Assembly (NCBI RefSeq): GCF_007097395.1
Contig: NZ_VKDC01000004.1
Span: 310,001-374,000, forward strand
Length of the DNA stretch: 64,000 nt
Source: Fulvivirga sp. M361
GTDB lineage: Bacteria > Bacteroidota > Bacteroidia > Cytophagales > Cyclobacteriaceae
Direction: 5' to 3'
Positions 3,673 through 63,150 of the stretch are shown here, in pieces. Numbering within the stretch: position 1 is the stretch's first letter; each line of letters begins with the position of its first letter. Position numbers and translations under genes: made by a program. The notes under the pieces are model-generated. The model was not told where the DNA came from. It saw only the letters and a list, made by a program, of their open reading frames with translations, and ran no database searches.

Positions 3673-6105
3673 ATGCTTTTAAAGTCTTTACCCTTTCTTT
3701 TATCTCTGGGCCTTCTAACGGGTTATGCTAACTCATATGGTCAGGCTAAAAATTGTGCCAAAAACTGCACTTGTACCGTATCTGGTGAAATTGTGGATGC
3801 AACAACAGGAGAAGCTGTCGCTTTTGCTACTGTAAAAATCATAGATAGTGACAAAGGAGTATTATCTAATGCCGAAGGGCATTTTGAGATCAGGGGTTTA
3901 TGTGTGACTGAGGTAGACATTGAGGTATCTCACATTGGCTACAAGCGTATTATGCATCACCATGACATTTACCATCCGCGGCTGCAAGTGCAGTTGGCTG
4001 CTGACGAAGTAGTACTGGAAAGTATTATTGTAGAAGGGGAAAGTACAGGCGCCGGTCTGCTCTCACTGGCAGAGGTAGCACTGGAAGGAAAAAAACTGGA
4101 TGAAGTAAAAAACAAGTCATTAGGAGATGCACTGGCCACTTTAAGCGGGGTTAGTACGCTAAAAACAGGGCAGAACATAGTGAAGCCCGTAGTCCACGGA
4201 CTGCATAGTAATCGTGTATTGATCATCAACAATGGGGTGCGCCACGAATTCCAAAATTGGGGTGCGGAACATGCCCCTGAAATAGATCCTTCTCTGGTGG
4301 ATAAGCTCAGTGTGGTGAAAGGCGCAGCCACAGTACGTTATGGGCCTGATGCATTGGGCGGCGTGATACTGATAGATGCGCCACCCCTGGAGTTACATGA
4401 AGACTGGAATGGAGAAGTTAGTCTTTCGGGAAACACCAATGGCAGATCAGGTGAAGGTAGTGTAGAGTTACATAAAGGTTTTGACCGGACTGCTTTTTTT
4501 GGTCAGGCTTCCTGGATACAGCAAGGTGACTTATCCGCTCCTGACTATCAACTCACCAATACAGGGAAAAAAGAATGGAGCGCTGCTGCAGGTGCACGTT
4601 ATCATTGGCCTCATGTAGATTTGAATGTTTACTATTCTCATTTTAACCAGGAACTGGGCATTCTCAGGGCTTCCGTTTCCGGCAATTTAGTGGATCTTGC
4701 GAACAGCATCGAAAGCGAAATACCTCCTAATACACGACCTTTTTCCTATGATATCAATAATCCAAGACAGACCGTAGAGCATGACCTGTTTAAATTGCAA
4801 GGCAAATGGAATGGTGATCATCAGTCTTTGGATGTTCAGTACGCATTTCAATTGAATAAACGGAAGGAGTTTGACGTACGCCGCGGGGCAAATAACCAAC
4901 GTCCGGGCATTGACCTGGAACTAATCAGTCATATCCTGGAGGCAGACTGGAAGCATGCCAACTTCAAAAGGTGGGAAGGTAATATAGGTGTACAAGCTAT
5001 TTATCAAGATAATAACAACCAGCCTGGCACTAACACAGTGCCTTTTATTCCAAACTATAATGTCCTGCGGTTAGGAGCTTATTTGATAGAATCACTTCCT
5101 ATAGGGAACAACTGGGTAGAAGTCGGTTTACGCTATGACTATCAAAACTTTTCTGTAGTAGGCCGTGAACCTGATAACAGTGTATACAAAAATGAGCTGA
5201 CCTACCAAAATGCCTCATTTACCACAGGCTATCGATGGAAGTTCAGCAAGTCTAAAAGTTTTAGAACGAATCTAGGAACAGCATGGAGAGCTCCCAACGT
5301 TTCAGAACTATACAGTTTTGGCCGGCACCAATCTTCCATTGACTATGGGTTGCTACGTTATAGTATTAGCGAAGCAAATCTGGTAACAACGGATGATATC
5401 CTTACAGAAGAAGAACGTCCGGTTCCTTCAGAAATTGGTGTTAAATGGGTGAACACATACCAGTGGAAGAATAAATTCATTGACGCGGAAGTTACCGCTT
5501 ATGTTAACTATATTGATAATTACATTTATTCGCGACCCGGCGGTATCACGCAAACGGTACGTGGTGCTTTTCCTTTCTTTCTATTTGATCAAGCTGATGC
5601 ACTATTTTTTGGATTGGATGTAAGCAGCACCATCAAACATAGTGGTAAGTGGAAATCTGAGTTTAACGGAAATTATTTATGGGCACGAGATATAGAAAAT
5701 AATGACAATTTTGTAGCATTACCTCCAGTCAACCTTGCTTACCGAATCTCATTTAATACCAGGAAATTGGGTCCTTTTCGATCCTCAGAGTTTACGCTGG
5801 ATCTGGGGTATACATTTCAACAGTTTCAGGCACCCAGAACTATTTCTGTCCGAACGCTACTGGAGGCAAAAAGCGATGACATTAATATTTTTGCTGAAAA
5901 CGCCGCTGATTTTGATTTTATCGACCCTCCTGACGGGTATTTTTTAGCAGGGTTTTTATGGCGTTCTACCATTGGCCCTGTCAATACATTGCTACGTATT
6001 GATAATCTATTGAATGTCAATTATAGAAACTATACCGATCGCCTTCGTTACTTTGCTGACGATGCAGGTATCAATGTAGGCTTAACCCTTTCCTATGCGT
6101 TCTGA
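3673..6105 (+). CDS. TonB-dependent outer-membrane receptor, probably metal (zinc?) uptake
   Basis: A receptor of about 810 residues. Order: signal peptide (LLKSLPFLLSLGLLTGYANSYG), a short Cys-rich stretch (NCAKNCTCTV), a CarboxypepD_reg-like/DUF4480 beta-sandwich (SGEIVDATTGEAVAFATVKI), a plug domain (HGLHSNRVLIINNGVRHE... with SVVKGAATVRYGPDALGGV) and a 22-strand barrel ending in the aromatic LTLSYAF. Conserved plug wording WGAEHAPEID and the His cluster MHHHDIYHP fit metal-ion receptors of the ZnuD-like group. Neighbouring partner lipoprotein and shared palindrome support a metal regulon. The reading frame is open from a TTG at 3655, but that codon lies inside the operator, so the ATG at 3673 is the better start. 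Substrate is inferred, not proven. Confidence 0.88.
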   Translation: MLLKSLPFLLSLGLLTGYANSYGQAKNCAKNCTCTVSGEIVDATTGEAVAFATVKIIDSDKGVLSNAEGHFEIRGLCVTEVDIEVSHIGYKRIMHHHDIYHPRLQVQLAADEVVLESIIVEGESTGAGLLSLAEVALEGKKLDEVKNKSLGDALATLSGVSTLKTGQNIVKPVVHGLHSNRVLIINNGVRHEFQNWGAEHAPEIDPSLVDKLSVVKGAATVRYGPDALGGVILIDAPPLELHEDWNGEVSLSGNTNGRSGEGSVELHKGFDRTAFFGQASWIQQGDLSAPDYQLTNTGKKEWSAAAGARYHWPHVDLNVYYSHFNQELGILRASVSGNLVDLANSIESEIPPNTRPFSYDINNPRQTVEHDLFKLQGKWNGDHQSLDVQYAFQLNKRKEFDVRRGANNQRPGIDLELISHILEADWKHANFKRWEGNIGVQAIYQDNNNQPGTNTVPFIPNYNVLRLGAYLIESLPIGNNWVEVGLRYDYQNFSVVGREPDNSVYKNELTYQNASFTTGYRWKFSKSKSFRTNLGTAWRAPNVSELYSFGRHQSSIDYGLLRYSISEANLVTTDDILTEEERPVPSEIGVKWVNTYQWKNKFIDAEVTAYVNYIDNYIYSRPGGITQTVRGAFPFFLFDQADALFFGLDVSSTIKHSGKWKSEFNGNYLWARDIENNDNFVALPPVNLAYRISFNTRKLGPFRSSEFTLDLGYTFQQFQAPRTISVRTLLEAKSDDINIFAENAADFDFIDPPDGYFLAGFLWRSTIGPVNTLLRIDNLLNVNYRNYTDRLRYFADDAGINVGLTLSYAF

Positions 6106-6194: not shown

Positions 6195-6863
6195 ATGAAA
6201 CACATTAACTATTTCCTAAGTCTTTTAAGCCTCCTGAGTTTGGCTACATTATTCAGCTGTAGTGACGATGACCCCCCTTCTGCCGAAAATGAAGAAGAAA
6301 TCATTGATCTGGTGAAGCTGACCTTTACACCGGCAGGAACCGGAACACCCATAGTTGTTGAAGCTAAAGATGATGACGGAGAAGGTCCCGGAGATTTTGA
6401 GCTTGACCCTATCAATTTGGCGGCAGGTGTGATATACACACTAACTATTGAGGTCAGAAATGAAGAGGAGGGTGAAGACATTACAGAAGAAATAAAGGGA
6501 GAAGCTACGGCGCATCAGTTCTTCTTCGCCTGGACAGGCCAGATCTTTGAGAATCCTAACGGATTGGGTAACTACGCTGATGACGGCCAGAGTCAAGGGC
6601 CATATGGGAATGAAGGAGGTTCAGTATTATACGCCGATGAAGAAACAGACCTTCAATTCGAACCGGATGAAGATGGAGTAGTTCCACGGGATAATGTTCC
6701 TGTAGGTTTGACTACCACCTGGGAAACTATAGAAACACCACCCATGGATGCACAACAGTTCAGAGTAGTATTATTACATCAGCCCGGATTAAAAACGGCT
6801 ACTTCCGATTCTTCCATTGGAGATCCTGATGTAGACCTTACGTTCAGTATTACTATACAATAA
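6195..6863 (+). CDS. Lipoprotein partner of the TonB receptor ('type 1 periplasmic-binding fold' annotation family)
   Basis: A 222-residue lipoprotein (lipobox LFSC, Cys22) with a strongly acidic N-terminal linker and a beta-rich body. Wording such as LTFTPAGTGTPIVVEAKDDD, EATAHQFFFAWTG and FRVVLLHQPGLKTAT is recurrent in a Bacteroidetes family found directly after TonB-dependent receptors, usually annotated as 'type 1 periplasmic binding fold superfamily'. Acidic clusters and the His in EATAHQFFF could bind metal. It follows the receptor by 90 bp with its own operator-like palindrome, so it is likely co-regulated. Function unproven. Confidence 0.75.
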   Translation: MKHINYFLSLLSLLSLATLFSCSDDDPPSAENEEEIIDLVKLTFTPAGTGTPIVVEAKDDDGEGPGDFELDPINLAAGVIYTLTIEVRNEEEGEDITEEIKGEATAHQFFFAWTGQIFENPNGLGNYADDGQSQGPYGNEGGSVLYADEETDLQFEPDEDGVVPRDNVPVGLTTTWETIETPPMDAQQFRVVLLHQPGLKTATSDSSIGDPDVDLTFSITIQ

Positions 6864-55397: not shown

Positions 55398-55473
55398 GCG
55401 AGAGTAGCTCAGCTGGTAGAGCGCAACCTTGCCAAGGTTGAGGTCGCGGGTTCGAACCCCGTCTCCCGCTCCA
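55398..55473 (+). tRNA. tRNA-Gly (GCC), CCA encoded
   Basis: Cloverleaf: acceptor GCGAGAG / CTCCCGC, D-arm GCTC...GAGC, anticodon arm CAACC-TTGCCAA-GGTTG (anticodon GCC), T-arm GCGGG-TTCGAAC-CCCGT, discriminator T73, encoded CCA. The acceptor stem has an A4-C69 mismatch where G-C would be expected. Confidence 0.95.
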
Positions 55474-55487
55474 TTAGTAAACAAAAT

Positions 55488-55515
55488 ATGCCGGACGGGT
55501 TCCGGCATTATTGTT
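55488..55515 (+). terminator. Terminator after tRNA-Gly
   Basis: ATGCCGGA-CGGGT-TCCGGCAT stem (8 bp, five-base loop) followed by TATTGTTTG. Confidence 0.75.
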
Positions 55516-55587
55516 TGAGACATGTTCCTGATTTAACAAAGGAATAACAGTCAGAAAAGTCTGACTCGCCAGATATTTAAAATAGTT

Positions 55588-55672
55588 GCCCGGGTGGTGG
55601 AATTGGTAGACACGCAGGACTTAAAATCCTGTGGGCATTGCGCCCGTGCGGGTTCAAGTCCCGCCCCGGGTA
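55588..55672 (+). tRNA. tRNA-Leu (TAA)
   Basis: Class II tRNA of 85 bases: acceptor GCCCGGG / CCCGGGT, anticodon arm CAGGA-CTTAAAA-TCCTG (anticodon TAA), long variable arm (GGGCATTGCGCCC-type stem), T-loop GGTTCAAGTCC, discriminator A; CCA is not encoded. Accessory genes begin directly downstream. Confidence 0.96.
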
Positions 55673-55692
55673 CACTGATTATCAATCAGTTA

Positions 55693-55924: not shown

Positions 55925-55984
55925 ACCTTAAAATGTAGTTAGTCGAGTAGGTAAAGATGAATTATACCCCTAAACCTCTCAATT
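55925..55984. repeat. Direct repeat R3, left copy
   Basis: 60 bp, present again at 60784-60844 in the same orientation, identical except for one inserted G (GTCGAG versus GTCGGAG). The two copies bracket the four-gene operon and the integrase fragment. The right end of this copy runs directly into the 5'-truncated small membrane gene. The stretch 55725-55924 has no other feature. Confidence 0.9.
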
Positions 55985-56236: not shown

Positions 56237-57628
56237 TTGTTTGGTTTGCCACTAAAATATATAAGTTGTATAATCCTTTGGCTTTCAAGCCTTTTCATGT
56301 CGCCCACGCAGGGGCAGATGCTTGCTATCGAAACGCCTCGTCCCTTTTCTTTTGAGACATATGGGATGGAGAGTGACTTTTACAATTCACCATCTATACC
56401 AAATAGTGTAAGTCAGATTAGTACTTTTCCCGATTATACGAGACAAGGTGGATTGACTCGCCATCAAGTGAATCTTCAGAGTGTAGAAAATGATATTAAG
56501 GCGTATAATGATCGAAAAGCTCAGACAGCCTCATTAATGGCCGAAATAGATCAAGCAATGTCTGCTCGCTCTATTAACTACACTTTCCCTAATCTCAATA
56601 ATGATGCAAGACATCAAAGATTTGAACGCGCTTTAGATCAATTGTCGCTCATGTTAGATGATCAACAGCCTCTAGACATTACGAAGGCCGTATCAATCGT
56701 AGAAAATGCTTATGACCCAAGTGTCACTTATCAGGACTTGAAAAGACAAGTCCAAAATCTCGCGTTTCTCAGTGATTACATCTTAAAAACAAAAGGCTTA
56801 CCAGAAGGCGATAACCTCTCCAAAGTCATGTCAATGTTTCATGTCATGGCGGATACAACGACTATCACGCTTGAAGGTCAAGAATTTGAGCAAACCTTTT
56901 ATCCCTTACTCTATGATTTTGATGACCCTTGGGGACGACAAGACTATTCTAAAATGTTTGTATCCAAACTCCTTCGCTTTGGAACGGGCAATTGCAATTC
57001 ATTACCACGCTTGTTTCTGATGGTCGCAGAAGAGCTTAATGTTGATGTGTCTTTGGCCTTTGCCCCTAATCATTCTTATATCAAGTTTCAAGATCGCTAT
57101 GGAGAATGGCATAATATTGAACTTACCAACCAGATGCTTACCACCGATGATATTATCATGGAAAGTGGTTGGGTGAAGGCAGAGGCCATTAGAAGTGGTA
57201 TTTACATGAATCCTTTGACCAAGAAAGAGATTATTGCACAATCGGTTAATGATCTGGCTCTAGCCCATGAGAAACTTTTTGGGCCAAGTGAGTTCTCTCT
57301 GCGATGTGCAAATTTGGCCTTAAAGTACAATTCAAAGAGCATAACTGCGCATCAAATAAAGGCCAGTTATCACACCAGTCTTTTGCGCTATGTGGTTGAG
57401 CAATACAACCAACAAAAGCGCTCCAAGACTGCTTTTTTTCAAGATAAAAAGGCTATCGCAATCAAGTCAAAGATGGAGACGGATTATCAAATCATAGATG
57501 ACTTGGGGTTTTCTGAAATTCCGGAAGAGGTTTATAATCAATGGATAAAAGCCATGGATAATGAAGGAAATAGACAGGCCAGTCGAACACGACAAAGAGA
57601 AATGCTAAATTCACTTAACAAATACTGA
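56237..57628 (+). CDS. Exported transglutaminase-like (papain-fold) protein, paralogue 1
   Basis: A 463-residue protein, first gene of a four-gene operon. TTG start at 56237 (no in-frame ATG precedes the signal peptide; a TAG lies just upstream). Signal peptide to about residue 27 (ISCIILWLSSLFMSPTQGQ). Catalytic-looking core: YDFDDPWGRQDYSKMFVSKL, then GTGNCNSLPRLFLMVAEEL with Cys253, then FAPNHSYIKF with His279, then WHNIELTNQ with Glu295: a Cys-His-acid arrangement like SirB1/transglutaminase-like proteins. A helical C-terminal part resembles TPR-type helices (residues ~335-460). Clearly paralogous to the protein at 59404. Substrate unknown. The next gene begins 1 bp after its stop. Confidence 0.75.
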   Translation: MFGLPLKYISCIILWLSSLFMSPTQGQMLAIETPRPFSFETYGMESDFYNSPSIPNSVSQISTFPDYTRQGGLTRHQVNLQSVENDIKAYNDRKAQTASLMAEIDQAMSARSINYTFPNLNNDARHQRFERALDQLSLMLDDQQPLDITKAVSIVENAYDPSVTYQDLKRQVQNLAFLSDYILKTKGLPEGDNLSKVMSMFHVMADTTTITLEGQEFEQTFYPLLYDFDDPWGRQDYSKMFVSKLLRFGTGNCNSLPRLFLMVAEELNVDVSLAFAPNHSYIKFQDRYGEWHNIELTNQMLTTDDIIMESGWVKAEAIRSGIYMNPLTKKEIIAQSVNDLALAHEKLFGPSEFSLRCANLALKYNSKSITAHQIKASYHTSLLRYVVEQYNQQKRSKTAFFQDKKAIAIKSKMETDYQIIDDLGFSEIPEEVYNQWIKAMDNEGNRQASRTRQREMLNSLNKY

Positions 57629-57629
57629 C

Positions 57630-58643
57630 ATGAGACAATCGGTCATTGCATTAACTACGATCATGTTACTCATAATGAGTACTTCATACAGCCAACAACC
57701 TTTTGAAAGGCTTGGATACACTGTACCGATCTCAACCTTGAGCCAAGGAAAATATAGTGAGGATTTTACCTCAGACTCTCTCGTTCAGGTTGGCAGTGTT
57801 ATGCTCAATCGTGTGACTGGCAAAATCGTTTCTTTTATCACCTATGATACGATGTATTCTGAACACTCTCTTGATCCACAGCTAATCAGCAGATTCATGT
57901 CTCAGGATCCGTTGGGAGAGAAGTTTTATCCACTTTCACCTTATAACTATGTAGCGAACAATCCGATTCTATTTGTTGATCCAGATGGGCGTGAGCTTGT
58001 GGTTTACTTTAAAGGTAAAGGATCGAATACTAAATTTATTAACCAGATTAACGCCATGTTTGACGGCCAATTTAAACTTACATTTACCCAGTTTAAAGAC
58101 GGTGATGGCAACGCGGTAAAGGGAAAGTACACTGTTGGTATTCAGGCTACTGAAGATGGGGGTGATGTCAGCAAATTAACTGAAGGCCAACAGGCGTTTT
58201 ATAAAGGGTTCAAACAAGTAGTTGATCACTCTGTAAGAGTTGATTTAGATGTATTTAACGGTAACAGTAAAGTCGATGTTGGTAACTACCAAAACAATGC
58301 TTTAGATGTCGGTGACACCGAGCAATTTCCTGAGTATGATGCAACAAAGTATGAACAACAAGGCCCAACCCAAGGCGGAAAAATAATTCATGAAGTGAGA
58401 GAGCAGTTCGGCAAGGCTCTTGACGGTAGGAAAAAGGGTGATTGGAGAGGTTATAATTCCAATCATAGTCGAGCCATTGGATGGGAGAATTCTGTGAATG
58501 GCAACACACGGTTAGGAGATGGTGGAAACATTGATTCAGGTGTTATTCAACAATTCAAGCTTAAGAATGGTAGTGTAGTTAAATACAAGATAATTGGTCA
58601 TCAATCGCAGGAAATTCTTATCGTAAAACCTCATAACAAATGA
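57630..58643 (+). CDS. Miniature exported Rhs-core protein with C-terminal toxin-like domain
   Basis: A 337-residue protein. Residues 1-22 are a signal peptide (SVIALTTIMLLIMSTSYSQ). Residues ~85-120 hold the RHS-repeat-associated core signature: LISRFMSQDPLGEKFYPLSP, then YNYVANNPILFVDPDGRE. In normal Rhs proteins this marks the end of a cage of over 1000 residues; here the YD-repeat cage is missing. Residues 121-337 are the variable tip. It has HEVREQ (His254-Glu255) and NHSRAIGWEN (His279, Glu286), the His-Glu wording of a recurrent Bacteroidetes Rhs-tip family that may bind metal. I infer an envelope-acting toxin. Its stop overlaps the lipoprotein start (ATGA). Confidence 0.72.
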   Translation: MRQSVIALTTIMLLIMSTSYSQQPFERLGYTVPISTLSQGKYSEDFTSDSLVQVGSVMLNRVTGKIVSFITYDTMYSEHSLDPQLISRFMSQDPLGEKFYPLSPYNYVANNPILFVDPDGRELVVYFKGKGSNTKFINQINAMFDGQFKLTFTQFKDGDGNAVKGKYTVGIQATEDGGDVSKLTEGQQAFYKGFKQVVDHSVRVDLDVFNGNSKVDVGNYQNNALDVGDTEQFPEYDATKYEQQGPTQGGKIIHEVREQFGKALDGRKKGDWRGYNSNHSRAIGWENSVNGNTRLGDGGNIDSGVIQQFKLKNGSVVKYKIIGHQSQEILIVKPHNK

Positions 58644-59392
58644 TATTCAGATATATCTGCATATGCTTGTTTGCTCTTGTTTTCATGAGTTGTGATAAGC
58701 AAACCAACACTATTGAAGGTGAATATCATGGTTTTTTTTATGAGACATGGTACAGGGTTAAATTAAGATCTAACAAGGAATTTGAGTTTAAAATTGAAGG
58801 GCATCAGGGTGATGGGAGTGGGTTTGGAACCTATGAGATCAGCAACGATACTTTGACTTTCCACTTAGCAGAAGGAAGCCAGCCCTTCAGTATGGACATA
58901 GAAGGTGAGAAGTATCTTATTGAAAATGATTCTTGCCTCATCAATATATGGACAAGGCTAGATTTGTGTAAAAATGTTCCTCCCGATCAGGAATGGTCGA
59001 GTAGCAAAAGGAGTATTTATTATCCTTACAAGAAGCCTGTTAATAACGATGTGCGCGATGAAATGAATCAGGCTTTGTTTAGTGCTCTAAACGTTGAAGA
59101 TGTGAGGAGCTACATGCCTGATACAGTTGATCAAGTTATTTTGAAATCATATCATGAAATTTCTGGTCAAGAAGGTTTTACCCTGAGTCAATTTGGGAAG
59201 CCTGTAATGGTGAAAACTGAGCTGGAAATTAAACAAGAGGGTCATGGAAGTTTTCTAGAAATTATGGATATCAATATTCAAGACGATCAGATGTTAATGT
59301 TACTGGCATACGGACAAACCTATCTTAACTATGCAGTTAATTTCACGAAAGTTGAAGACGGCTGGGAAGTTGAAAGTACAAAGGTTTATTGA
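58640..59392 (+). CDS. Lipoprotein, candidate immunity protein
   Basis: A 250-residue lipoprotein (lipobox FMSC, Cys18). N-terminal half looks like a small beta-barrel/lipocalin-like module (GEYHGFFYETWYRVKLRSNK, EISNDTLTFHLAEG); the C-terminal half (about 130-250) is a mixed fold ending YAVNFTKVEDGWEVESTKVY. No known family recognised. Position directly after an Rhs-type toxin with a 4-bp overlap, and the same envelope location, suggest it is the immunity protein (inference). Confidence 0.6.
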   Translation: MIFRYICICLFALVFMSCDKQTNTIEGEYHGFFYETWYRVKLRSNKEFEFKIEGHQGDGSGFGTYEISNDTLTFHLAEGSQPFSMDIEGEKYLIENDSCLINIWTRLDLCKNVPPDQEWSSSKRSIYYPYKKPVNNDVRDEMNQALFSALNVEDVRSYMPDTVDQVILKSYHEISGQEGFTLSQFGKPVMVKTELEIKQEGHGSFLEIMDINIQDDQMLMLLAYGQTYLNYAVNFTKVEDGWEVESTKVY

Positions 59393-59403
59393 TACTCTTT
59401 CTG

Positions 59404-60504
59404 ATGAATAGTAGATCAGTTTTATTGATCATAATCTTAAGTGTGTTTATCGGTCGGATCAATACCCAAGCGCAGAAAGTTTCTACCAATAACAGATTAT
59501 ATAACGAGGCATTTGATCACCTAGCTGGAATGCTAAGTGGAGAGATTGAGATTAGTCTTAAAGATGCCGTATATCAAGTCGAAAATGCCTATCTCGATGA
59601 TAATTTGAGTTATGATTCATTTAACCTCTCAATTGAATATTACACCAATATTGCCCGATTATTTTTAGAAAAGTCCGAACTGGACTACATGGGTGATGAT
59701 AAAGAGAATATCAGGAAGAATGGAGCCATATTTACAGTAATGACTGCTAAGGAGAATATCTATTTAAAAGATGATTACTACCTCATGCCAGATCCTTTTC
59801 TGTACGATTTTGATGATTTCTGGGGTGAAAGAGATTGGACTAATATGTTCGTTTCCAAATTACTCAATACCCATAGCGGCAATTGCCACTCACTCCCACT
59901 TTTATATAAAATTCTGGCAGAAGAATTAGAAGCCAAGGCCTATCTTTCTTTTGCACCAAACCATACCTATATCAAGGTTAGGTCTCAAAACCCAGAAATT
60001 GGATGGTATAATACTGAGCTTACCAGTGCAACCTTTCCAATTGATGCTTGGATTAAGAGCAGTGGTTATGTTCATCTCGATGCAATCAAGAACGGGATTT
60101 ACATGGATACGCTCTCGAAAAGCCAAGAAATAGTGATGTGTATGATTGACTTAGCTAAAGGTTATGAAAGGCATTTCAAGAAACCGGATGACTTAGATTT
60201 TTTAGTTCAATGTGCTGATACAGCACTGGCATATTATCCAAACTATGTGAATGCGATGCTTTTGAAAGCTGAAACATTGAAGAAGAAATTTGAGGCCATA
60301 ATGGATAAGGAAGGAGCAACTTACGCTAGTCAAGTTCTTTCGATAGATGAAAACAAAACACTCTTTGAGCAAATGGAAACTTTATACGCCAAAATCTTTC
60401 GTATGGGGTATCGCACGATGCCTAAAGAAATGTATGCAGAATGGCTTAGTGATCTAAACAAACACGCTGATAAGTATACTAATAAAGCATTGAACATTGA
60501 TTAA
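59404..60504 (+). CDS. Exported transglutaminase-like (papain-fold) protein, paralogue 2
   Basis: About 366 residues from the ATG at 59404 (12 bp after the lipoprotein stop; a TTG at 59389 is in frame). Signal peptide SVLLIIILSVFIGRINTQAQ. It shares the core with paralogue 1: YDFDDFWGERDWTNMFVSKL, SGNCHSLPLLYKILAEEL (Cys161), SFAPNHTYIKV (His187), WYNTELT (Glu205) and SGYVHLDAIKNGIYMDTLSK. The N-terminal ~90-residue extension of paralogue 1 is missing. The two appear to be an old duplication flanking the toxin/lipoprotein pair. Both keep the putative catalytic residues, so both may be active. Confidence 0.75.
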   Translation: MNSRSVLLIIILSVFIGRINTQAQKVSTNNRLYNEAFDHLAGMLSGEIEISLKDAVYQVENAYLDDNLSYDSFNLSIEYYTNIARLFLEKSELDYMGDDKENIRKNGAIFTVMTAKENIYLKDDYYLMPDPFLYDFDDFWGERDWTNMFVSKLLNTHSGNCHSLPLLYKILAEELEAKAYLSFAPNHTYIKVRSQNPEIGWYNTELTSATFPIDAWIKSSGYVHLDAIKNGIYMDTLSKSQEIVMCMIDLAKGYERHFKKPDDLDFLVQCADTALAYYPNYVNAMLLKAETLKKKFEAIMDKEGATYASQVLSIDENKTLFEQMETLYAKIFRMGYRTMPKEMYAEWLSDLNKHADKYTNKALNID

Positions 60505-60509
60505 ATATC

Positions 60510-60791
60510 TCATGGACTTGGCTTCTTGTAGCTTGCTTTAGTGATTTTAGAGTTAATCTCATCAAACAAGTTTTGCTGTATCAATCCTGCATAATGTTTC
60601 TCTGTTACTTGTACAGATGAATGACCGAGACCTTTGGAGAGTTTGCGAATATCAATTCCTAATTGCAAGCCAATATTCATCCAAGTGTCACGGAAGCTGT
60701 AAGAACGTACCCTCTTGTATATGCCTGCCATAGTCGCGATCTCTTGGATATGTTTATTGAACCATCCAAGGCGGTCGTTCTTAACCTTAAA
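60510..60791 (-). pseudogene. C-terminal remnant of a tyrosine recombinase (integrase)
   Basis: A minus-strand frame of 73 codons from an internal ATG at 60731, open upstream to about 60791 where it runs into repeat R3. It carries the end of a phage-type integrase: SYSFRDTWMNIGLQLGIDIR (second catalytic Arg), GLGHSSVQVTEKHYA (His and the nucleophilic Tyr). About three quarters of the gene is missing. This is the usual mark of a former integrative element. Confidence 0.85.
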
Positions 60792-60844
60792 ATGTAGTTA
60801 GTCGGAGTAGGTAAAGATGAATTATACCCCTAAACCTCTCAATT
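60784..60844. repeat. Direct repeat R3, right copy
   Basis: 61 bp, identical to 55925-55984 except for one additional G. It truncates the integrase coding frame. The following 60845-60925 shows nothing I can name. Confidence 0.9.
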
Positions 60845-60925
60845 CACACTGCTCTTATTATGCAGTCGCTGTAATCTGAAAAATAATAATCAAAAGATCG
60901 GTACATGTCCTCATACGAAAGGGTA

Positions 60926-61075
60926 GATATAGGTTGTGAATTTTGAAATGCTACTTTCAATTGATTGCCATGAAATTAAGTACTTAATAAGTGGATAATG
61001 AGCATTGTAAAATCTCATTTAAGCTATTTTAAGTGCTATATTTAGTGTTGGTAATAGGGTGTTCCTGTTGTCTGG
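60926..61075. repeat. Direct repeat R4, left copy
   Basis: 150 bp, matched over exactly the same length by 63001-63150 at roughly 85% or better (shared: GTGAATTTTGAAATGCTACT and CATGAAATTAAGTACTTAAT). The GCTATATTTAGT near its end resembles a Bacteroidetes -7 element, so the repeat may carry a promoter. Confidence 0.85.
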
Positions 61076-62737: not shown

Positions 62738-63000
62738 CTTGCGCAAGCTAATGAGTAGACGACCGTGAGCCATAAGCCCACAGCCTTCCCCGTACTCGGA
62801 TACGGGGGTGCACCTCCACATACTTACGCAGAAACTTCAGCATTGGCGCCACCACTCAGCGTACTCGCAACATGAAGTCACCTATATATGTTTCGCAGGT
62901 TTATGTCTGTAATAAACCAGATGTTCCACCACTTGACCCTACCCAGGCACTTTAGTGATAGGTGAAGCCCTTGGGAAACAGTATGCTGGTTAAAAGTATG
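62738..63000. other. GC-richer orphan fragment
   Basis: A palindrome TAGCTTGCGCAAGCTA (62735-62750) covers the hxlR stop and may terminate it. Behind it lies ~250 bp of clearly different composition, with a CCCCGTACTCGGATACGGGG hairpin (about 62794-62813) and a minus-strand stretch MLKFLRKYVEVHPRIRVRGR that looks protein-like but is only ~34 codons. Possibly the end of a lost mobile element. Confidence 0.3.
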
Positions 63001-63150
63001 GATATGGATTGTGAATTTTGAAATGCTACTTTCGATTGACTGCCATGAAATTAAGTACTTAATAAGTAGATAATGAGCATAGAAAAATCTCCTTTACACT
63101 ACTTTTAGGGCTATATTTAGTATTGGTAATAGGGTATCCCTGTTATCTGG
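63001..63150. repeat. Direct repeat R4, right copy
   Basis: Second copy of the 150-bp repeat (see 60926). It lies 33 bp before the TIR gene and probably supplies its promoter. Confidence 0.85.

Follow-up and report, generated by a model that had tools for sequence, protein, structure and literature searches.

A recurrent exported cassette of Fulvivirga sp. M361 couples papain/transglutaminase-like enzymes to a stand-alone Rhs tip: a candidate polymorphic toxin-immunity system

Our analysis of a 64,000-nucleotide stretch of the Fulvivirga sp. M361 genome (contig NZ_VKDC01000004.1, positions 310,001 to 374,000; this whole stretch is called "the window" below) identified at its positions 56237-60504 a compact four-gene cassette, which encodes two papain/transglutaminase-like proteins, a very small Rhs protein and a lipoprotein. 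An enzyme of this type is linked to an Rhs tip in all 18 of the other Bacteroidota loci that were found and read (L012, L009 and L010 duplicate L046, L048 and L054, respectively, and each pair was counted once), and this recurrence excludes chance linkage. The balance of the evidence tilts, in our view, towards a Sec-exported polymorphic toxin-immunity system in which the enzyme pair would be the unvarying machinery that processes stand-alone Rhs tips; we read it as a polymorphic system with a dedicated enzyme pair because the enzymes and the half-core module of the tip are constant while the toxin ends change.

The four-gene cassette

The four open reading frames are all on the + strand and form a tight cluster. 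Gene 1 (56237..57628, TTG start) encodes enzyme 1, a 463-amino-acid (aa) papain/transglutaminase-like protein with a signal peptide and the catalytic residues C253/H279/E295. Gene 2 (57630..58643; product P0002) encodes the exported mini-Rhs protein, a putative toxin of 337 aa, which matches the Rhs core profile TIGR03696. Gene 3 (58640..59392; product P0003) encodes a lipoprotein of 250 aa, and gene 4 (59389..60504) encodes enzyme 2, again papain/transglutaminase-like, which has 371 aa if translated from a TTG codon, a signal peptide and the residues C166/H192/E210. An alternative ATG for gene 4 at 59404 gives a protein of 366 aa. The intergenic gaps are 1 bp, -4 bp and then -4 bp (gene 4 TTG) or 11 bp (gene 4 ATG). 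These open reading frames, their order and their spacing bear out the four packed exported genes of an earlier reading made from the letters of this DNA (below, the sequence-only reading), whose 11-bp gap holds with the gene 4 ATG and whose Cys161 is C166 counted from that ATG. Type I signals in genes 1, 2 and 4 and the lipobox FMSC in gene 3 were called by a home-made hydrophobicity/lipobox heuristic rather than SignalP; this heuristic left 5 of the 45 enzymes and unfused tips of the other loci unflagged (L052_8, L013_7, L011_6, L013_8 and L041_9).

The mini-Rhs tip has a constant module and a variable toxin end

The only Pfam or NCBIfam model that gene 2 passes is the Rhs core (TIGR03696, Rhs_assc_core; 33.3 bits with a cut-off of 32.5), and the match covers only profile positions 42-75 of 76. 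The scans against these two collections gave no match to any repeat family and no YD repeats in the window tip, so that a YD-repeat barrel with a full Rhs core is not what this protein contains. Its constant half-core module of about 100 aa (57696..57995, + strand) consists of a leader of about 60 aa, which starts QPFERLGY and adjoins the predicted signal cleavage site, followed by the partial core. The remaining 215 aa (57996..58640, + strand) are the variable toxin end, with an HE-x2-EQ / H / A-x3-E pattern. Among 20 such tips the modules are alike in 189 of 190 pairs and the toxin ends in only 3 of 190, so a constant part with exchangeable ends is evident. Both autoprotease aspartate motifs are present in the half-core, including a P-x4-DP motif, and D71 and D95 are invariant in the 16 modules (of 20) that were aligned. 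A profile of the module, searched against the sequences of solved structures, matched chains of the Rhs/Tc/teneurin type over the core half only. The N-terminus of the tip has the form [NQD][PI][FY] beside the predicted signal cleavage site in 13 of 15 unfused tips, and this stretch is kept inside 4 of the 5 enzyme-tip fusions described below, which makes it a candidate recognition or cut site.

Toxin domains scored over the Pfam cut-off in four of the 20 tips: Ntox33 (L046), Amidase_2 (L050), Peptidase_M91 (L054) and Tox-REase-7 (L055). Four further tips were scanned, and one of them (L132) has Ntox23 over the cut-off; below it there are matches to GIY-YIG (L041) and TreTu_C. Most of the other toxin ends have no Pfam toxin match, and that of the window has no Pfam match of any kind. 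Relatives of the window toxin end are present in 5 of 107 genomes, its own included; those in genomes G429 (38% identity over 197 residues) and G648, both of the same genus, are the C-termini of longer Rhs proteins that do have the first core half. The window end and its relatives have in common the pattern GK-hIHE-hxEQ / H / A-x3-E, which by eye looks zincin-like, with no family matched. The label Peptidase M91 was considered for it and rejected, given the lack of a Pfam match and a motif that is HE-x2-EQ rather than HExxH.

The two enzymes are paralogues with intact active sites

The products of genes 1 and 4 align over 334 columns with 33% identity (E 7e-53 in a single comparison), and C253/H279/E295 of the former align with C166/H192/E210 of the latter, in agreement with the pair of flanking transglutaminase-like paralogues keeping Cys, His and Glu that the sequence-only reading had described. 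Enzyme 1 has about 100 aa of additional N-terminal region. Profile matches of the enzyme family make the C-terminal half of both proteins TPR-like. The scores of the two window enzymes against the Pfam family Transglut_core2 are 13.9 and 17.3 bits, under the cut-off of 23.5; 24 of the 28 family members scanned match it at E <= 0.1, and both of the distant relatives scanned exceed the cut-off (47.3 and 36.6 bits). The active-site motif is GQC/GNC, which we take to be transglutaminase-like. The Cys-His-Glu triad is intact in all 33 aligned Bacteroidota enzymes and in 5 more identified by motif search (38 of 38). In the search of solved-structure sequences the matches of the enzyme profile included designed TPR proteins (best E 2.4e-6), and none of the chains was named papain-like or transglutaminase.

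A maximum-likelihood tree of 38 enzyme sequences places 15 of them, including enzyme 1, on one side of a branch (the P1 clade; support 85/99) and another 15, including enzyme 2, likewise on one side of a second branch (the P4 clade; support 61/15, which becomes 99/97 once the two most divergent rows are removed). The rhizobial enzymes (below) and that of locus L132 fall outside both groups (support 100/100). Each of the 15 loci with a pair of enzymes has one P1 and one P4 copy, and a single old duplication that gave rise to P1 and P4 fits best, although the P4 node is weak. Pairwise distances among P1, P4 and module sequences are correlated with one another (r 0.77-0.82; none of 5000 permutations gave as much), which demonstrates that they were inherited together but not that they are in contact.

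Enzymes and half-core tips occur together

Both paralogues are present in 14 of the 18 other loci, making 15 pair loci with the window. The arrangement of the window, P1-tip-immunity-P4, which the sequence-only reading had proposed to look for in other Bacteroidetes, is also that of L041, L044, L046 and L011. The order is P1-P4-tip in L048, L052, L054, L055 and L013, and in L047, L049, L050, L051 and L053 (5 of the 15 pair loci) P1 is followed by a P4 that is fused to the tip module. By its own terms that reading would have been refuted had no other genome two or more of these genes together; 18 further loci have them. Two loci have one enzyme set and two tips, which are unrelated in L046 and related in L042 (34% identical ends). 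At L046 (2379-6455) P4 and the two different tips share nearly the same signal peptide followed by NPYESIG, which suggests either exchange of 5' ends or a shared sorting tag. The most divergent Bacteroidota locus, L132 (7080-9823), contains the Ntox23 tip, a lipoprotein, one enzyme and an insertion-type open reading frame beside a second tip remnant.

The enzyme family has two matches at E <= 1 in the genome of the window, both of them at the cassette. Among 295 genomes of the family 10 have the enzyme (own included), always as two neighbouring matches, and among 395 genomes drawn evenly from the phylum it was found in 7 (own included) with a single-sequence query and in 8 with the profile A2; an Rhs tip lies at the enzyme locus in all 8 of the latter. 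The 18 other loci come from these two samples and from a set of named genomes. Searched with the module of the window tip, 16 of the 295 family genomes gave matches, 9 of which span the whole module, and 8 of these 9 are at enzyme pairs. The ninth, a decayed gene in G432, carries two stops, and no enzyme is present in the 19 kb that were read there. Genomes G519 and G523 bear enzymes and lie below the threshold of the module search; the loci L049 and L050 show their fused modules. With the module profile A1, matches were obtained in 81 of the 395 phylum genomes. Its full-length matches, among the matches listed, are at 9 places in 7 of the 8 enzyme genomes, all at enzyme loci, and the other matches listed start mostly at position 50 or later, like ordinary Rhs cores. 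The family-genome search is the fairer test of linkage, because A1 was built from enzyme-linked tips. No full-length, intact half-core module without an enzyme was found in the samples searched. Three candidates for such modules (in G070, G049 and on contig 19 of G109, with matches starting at 17, 23 and 20) were rejected as ordinary tips that have the first core half; tblastn at E <= 1e-3 gave no enzyme beside them. A region of G049 (L219, 1746-14461) holds a series of full-core Rhs tips whose 5' ends are repeated; a small gene follows most of the tips, and the whole is a cassette store of the ordinary type.

Rhs cores themselves are plentiful in the genome of the window (at E <= 1 there are 23 matches, including a false one). 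A search of four Bacteroidota genomes with TIGR03696 gave 40 core matches, among which only the four enzyme-linked tips start at position 42; 35 of the 36 others start at or before position 16 and reach 75 or 76, and the last is a false match. One core match that ends early was considered as a possible shell and rejected; it lies in a protein of 682 aa that looks, by eye, like a C-terminal processing protease. Six ordinary transglutaminases found in the genome of the window served as a control, and no Rhs core match lies within 20 kb of any of them (five are on contigs of 45-71 kb and were judged for the nearest 20 kb; 150 kb separate the sixth from an Rhs core). The cassette is absent from the 50,697 phage records searched, and a search of viral contigs with peptide patterns of one sequence only did not find it.

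In two rhizobial relatives an Rhs protein is split at the same point

Outside the Bacteroidota, the closest relatives in the plasmid and phage collections that were searched are five rhizobial plasmid records, all weak matches, in which one enzyme relative adjoins an Rhs tip gene. Two of these records, from Neorhizobium petrolearium and Rhizobium lentis, have an RHS/YD-repeat shell of 1855 or 1832 aa, respectively, that stops shortly after a GRF motif; there is a 4-bp overlap between the shell gene and the enzyme gene, and the latter is followed by a tip gene that resumes at the same GRF motif (L184 6116-13958 and L183 3185-10776, where the Rhs protein is thus split by a transglutaminase-like gene). 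By eye, shell and tip each have a signal peptide. The shells are annotated TcdB middle/N-terminal in both species, which Pfam confirms for N. petrolearium. Against TIGR03696 the shells cover positions 1-50 and 1-55, and the tips of these two species and of R. leguminosarum cover 42/43-76, so that the rhizobial cut point is where the core match of the Bacteroidota tips begins; an intact Rhs near the R. leguminosarum tip covers 1-76. In R. leguminosarum the enzyme and tip are beside an insertion element (by eye), and in two Mesorhizobium records the same enzyme comes after a Tn3 transposase and is followed by a short gene annotated Rhs core. An intact shell adjoins the enzyme in 2 of the 5 records. 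Type II secretion genes adjoin the split locus in Neorhizobium.

Candidate immunity genes

Gene 3 is likely the immunity gene, from its position 3' of the toxin gene and the lipobox of its product, a protein that has no significant family match in the Pfam and NCBIfam scans. No relative of P0003 was found by tblastn (E <= 1) beside the homologous toxin ends of the sister species; the genes that neighbour the G429 and G648 ends look like lipoproteins by eye, with nothing over a Pfam cut-off. One of 10 downstream genes scanned exceeded such a cut-off (DUF4279, after Ntox33 in L046). By the same heuristic as above, 14 of the 20 first downstream genes, that of the window included, look exported. 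The next gene has no export signal after nuclease-type ends (L055, L041) and the Ntox33 end (L046), and looks exported after peptidase/amidase ends (window, L011, L044, L046, L050, L054), a pattern that is an impression and not a test, with the toxin class assigned partly by eye. If it is right, the nuclease-type and Ntox33 group would act in the cytosol of the target cell and the peptidase/amidase group in its envelope. The sequence-only reading had suggested an envelope toxin-immunity unit; the toxin-immunity part of this stands, and "envelope" is too narrow for a group whose Tox-REase-7 and below-cut-off GIY-YIG members have next genes without an export signal by the heuristic. That reading had not noted that the tip is the second half of an Rhs core, nor the enzyme-tip fusions, the split Rhs proteins of rhizobia, or the flanking 60-bp repeats and the integrase remnant.

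Proposed mechanism and alternative explanations

In the mechanism that we favour, the tip would be exported via Sec to the periplasm or the surface, and the enzymes would recognize its constant half-core module and form an acyl-enzyme on it. They would then hydrolyse the module and so free the C-terminal toxin or, as an alternative step, transfer the module to an acceptor; on the sequence evidence we place hydrolysis somewhat ahead of transfer. Such action would replace the processing that ordinary Rhs toxins carry out in a complete barrel, and the lipoprotein would protect the producing cell. Maturation or cross-linking of the toxin by the papain-fold proteins, one of the roles proposed in the sequence-only reading, thus still appears to be the leading class of explanation. 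Several points weigh against the mechanism. A single enzyme is present in 4 of the 19 Bacteroidota loci (L042, L043, L045 and L132; L045 ends about 200 bp from a contig end) and in the rhizobial ones, so a complete pair is not required. Both aspartates and the P-x4-DP motif are retained in the half-core, and self-cleavage without the enzymes could thus still occur. The fold of the enzymes is predicted from Pfam profiles and motifs, with sub-cut-off scores in the window itself, the P4 group as a whole is weakly supported (61/15), and the enzyme-module distance correlations may mirror shared ancestry.

A less probable arrangement, which we nevertheless take seriously, is that the enzymes are transpeptidases that join the exported tip covalently to an acceptor (the Rhs shell in rhizobia, a surface or cell-wall acceptor in Bacteroidota), so that the toxin would be displayed or loaded after export. 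The rhizobial shell and tip are indeed separate halves of one protein, cut at the same core position and with the enzyme gene between them, overlapping that of the shell by 4 bp; the [NQD][PI][FY] N-terminus lies next to the predicted cleavage in 13 of 15 unfused tips, and the GQC/GNC motif is presumably that of a transglutaminase-like active site. But the two halves could assemble non-covalently without a ligase, an intact shell is beside the enzyme in just 2 of 5 rhizobial records, and no tip-less Rhs shell was found among the 40 TIGR03696 core matches of the four Bacteroidota genomes, an absence that also counts against the mechanism favoured above. In its fullest form, which is speculative and a shade more doubtful again, split-toxin assembly would have the shell (rhizobia) or other acceptor (Bacteroidota) and the polymorphic tip exported separately and welded outside the cytoplasm by the papain-fold transpeptidases; one constant apparatus could then be loaded with alternative toxins from small cassettes, and in the Bacteroidota pair one enzyme would cut and the other join. 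It is rather improbable that the enzymes act through binding, as periplasmic chaperones or surface anchors that use their TPR-like C-terminal halves. Anchoring has been proposed for the inactive transglutaminase domains that precede RHS repeats (in the available part of PMC3482391), but in the cassette Cys-His-Glu is kept in both paralogues over deep divergence, unlike in those published domains.

Some toxins of polymorphic systems are indeed papain-like domains (likewise in the part of PMC3482391 available), and the sequence-only reading had included neutralization of the toxin, or a role as additional effectors, among the possible functions of the papain-fold proteins. This is unlikely, and as further effectors or immunity proteins we give them very little chance: the enzymes are constant across loci while the toxin ends change, one enzyme set serves two tips in L046 (where these are unrelated) and in L042, and in five loci an enzyme is fused ahead of a half-core with a toxin end of its own. 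Nor do we put any real credence in an artefact of neighbourhood, in which generic exported transglutaminases would lie near common Rhs genes by coincidence. Rhs cores are certainly abundant in this genome, but full modules and enzymes are both uncommon and turn up at the same places, enzyme-tip fusions exist, and no other transglutaminase of the six lies near an Rhs core.

Self-processing inside a closed barrel is what has been seen in the Rhs toxins studied to date. The branch described here, which extends over several Bacteroidota families and rhizobial plasmids, has that barrel missing or split, and its loci also encode enzymes whose active sites are intact. It provides a toxin format of small size (1 kb) in which the enzyme partner does not vary, as well as candidate substrates for exported transglutaminase-like proteins that form an uncharacterised group. 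It also raises the question of the route by which a Sec-exported tip reaches a competitor. If it is true that the enzymes ligate, this would be a new mode of toxin assembly outside the cell.

Genomic surroundings of the cassette

The cassette is flanked by a direct repeat of 60-61 bp (left copy 55925..55984, right copy 60784..60844, both + strand), of which no further copy was found in the genome. A C-terminal remnant of a tyrosine recombinase/phage integrase (60510..60797, - strand; PF00589, 28.2 bits with a cut-off of 27.1, profile positions 110-166 of 172) is cut off at the right repeat, and together repeats and truncated recombinase look like a decayed integrative element. Genes for tRNA-Gly and tRNA-Leu (55398..55673, + strand) lie beside the cassette. 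The 3' part of tRNA-Leu(taa) (55588-55673) is repeated downstream at steps of about 3 kb and 2 kb in a sister genome (L178 of G655; 730-1054, 4161-4264 and 6292-6328) and is present once more on a small contig from the genome of the window (L179, 1010-1118), so this tRNA gene is likely an integration hot spot in the genus. No clean empty copy of the 60-bp repeat was found at tRNA-Leu in the sister-genome comparison. The family sample includes 14 other genomes of this genus, all of them without the enzymes, which fits acquisition of the cassette. To its right, an apparently non-coding repeat of 158 nt (87% identical) has three copies, two in the window (60918-61075 and 62993-63150) and one at L180 484-642; they are about 2.1 and 1.4 kb apart, around small genes that by eye encode short-chain reductase, AhpD-like and HxlR-like proteins, and the two window copies have no Rfam match.

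Comparison with known systems

The sequence-only reading knew of no described system with this content, and likewise no description of the cassette's gene content was found in the open-access literature searched; print beyond it may differ. LapG-type enzymes are periplasmic transglutaminase-like cysteine proteases of the same broad fold, which release a surface protein and involve no toxin and no Rhs. In a paper on teneurin-like bacterial toxins (PMC13018210) the words transglutaminase and papain are absent from the main text, as far as this was available.

As set out in the available part of PMC3482391, polymorphic toxin systems have a constant N-terminal part, an exchangeable C-terminal toxin and an immunity gene located 3', and the cassette resembles them in its constant part, exchangeable toxin end, likely 3' immunity gene and shared toxin domains. 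The auto-processing peptidases described there are inside the toxin polypeptide, whereas the cassette has two separate paralogous enzyme genes beside a half-core tip. The same survey, again in part, describes inactive transglutaminase domains of Rhs toxins, which like the cassette enzymes are exported and linked to RHS. Those domains lack catalytic residues and precede the RHS array in one protein; the cassette enzymes have an intact triad and, in the window, are encoded by genes separate from that of a tip without an array. Even the fusions in 5 of the 15 pair loci join the enzyme to the half-core module and not to an RHS array.

In Rhs and Tc toxins, according to the portions available of PMC8636562 and PMC8765631, the C-terminal core is an aspartyl autoprotease that is sealed in the barrel and cuts after the second DP motif. 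The tips are like these Rhs effectors and Tc toxins in having a C-terminal core with two DP motifs ahead of the toxin. There, however, the C-terminal part seals a complete barrel of its own protein or of the BC complex, whereas the window tip has core positions 42-75 and no YD repeats. The genetic arrangement can also be compared with MafA/MafB of Neisseria (PMC3482391, in the part available), where a constant partner gene likewise stands beside a toxin gene whose product is constant in its N-terminal part and variable in its C-terminal part; the partner in that system is a surface lipoprotein thought to act as an anchor, whereas the partners in the cassette are two papain-fold enzymes.

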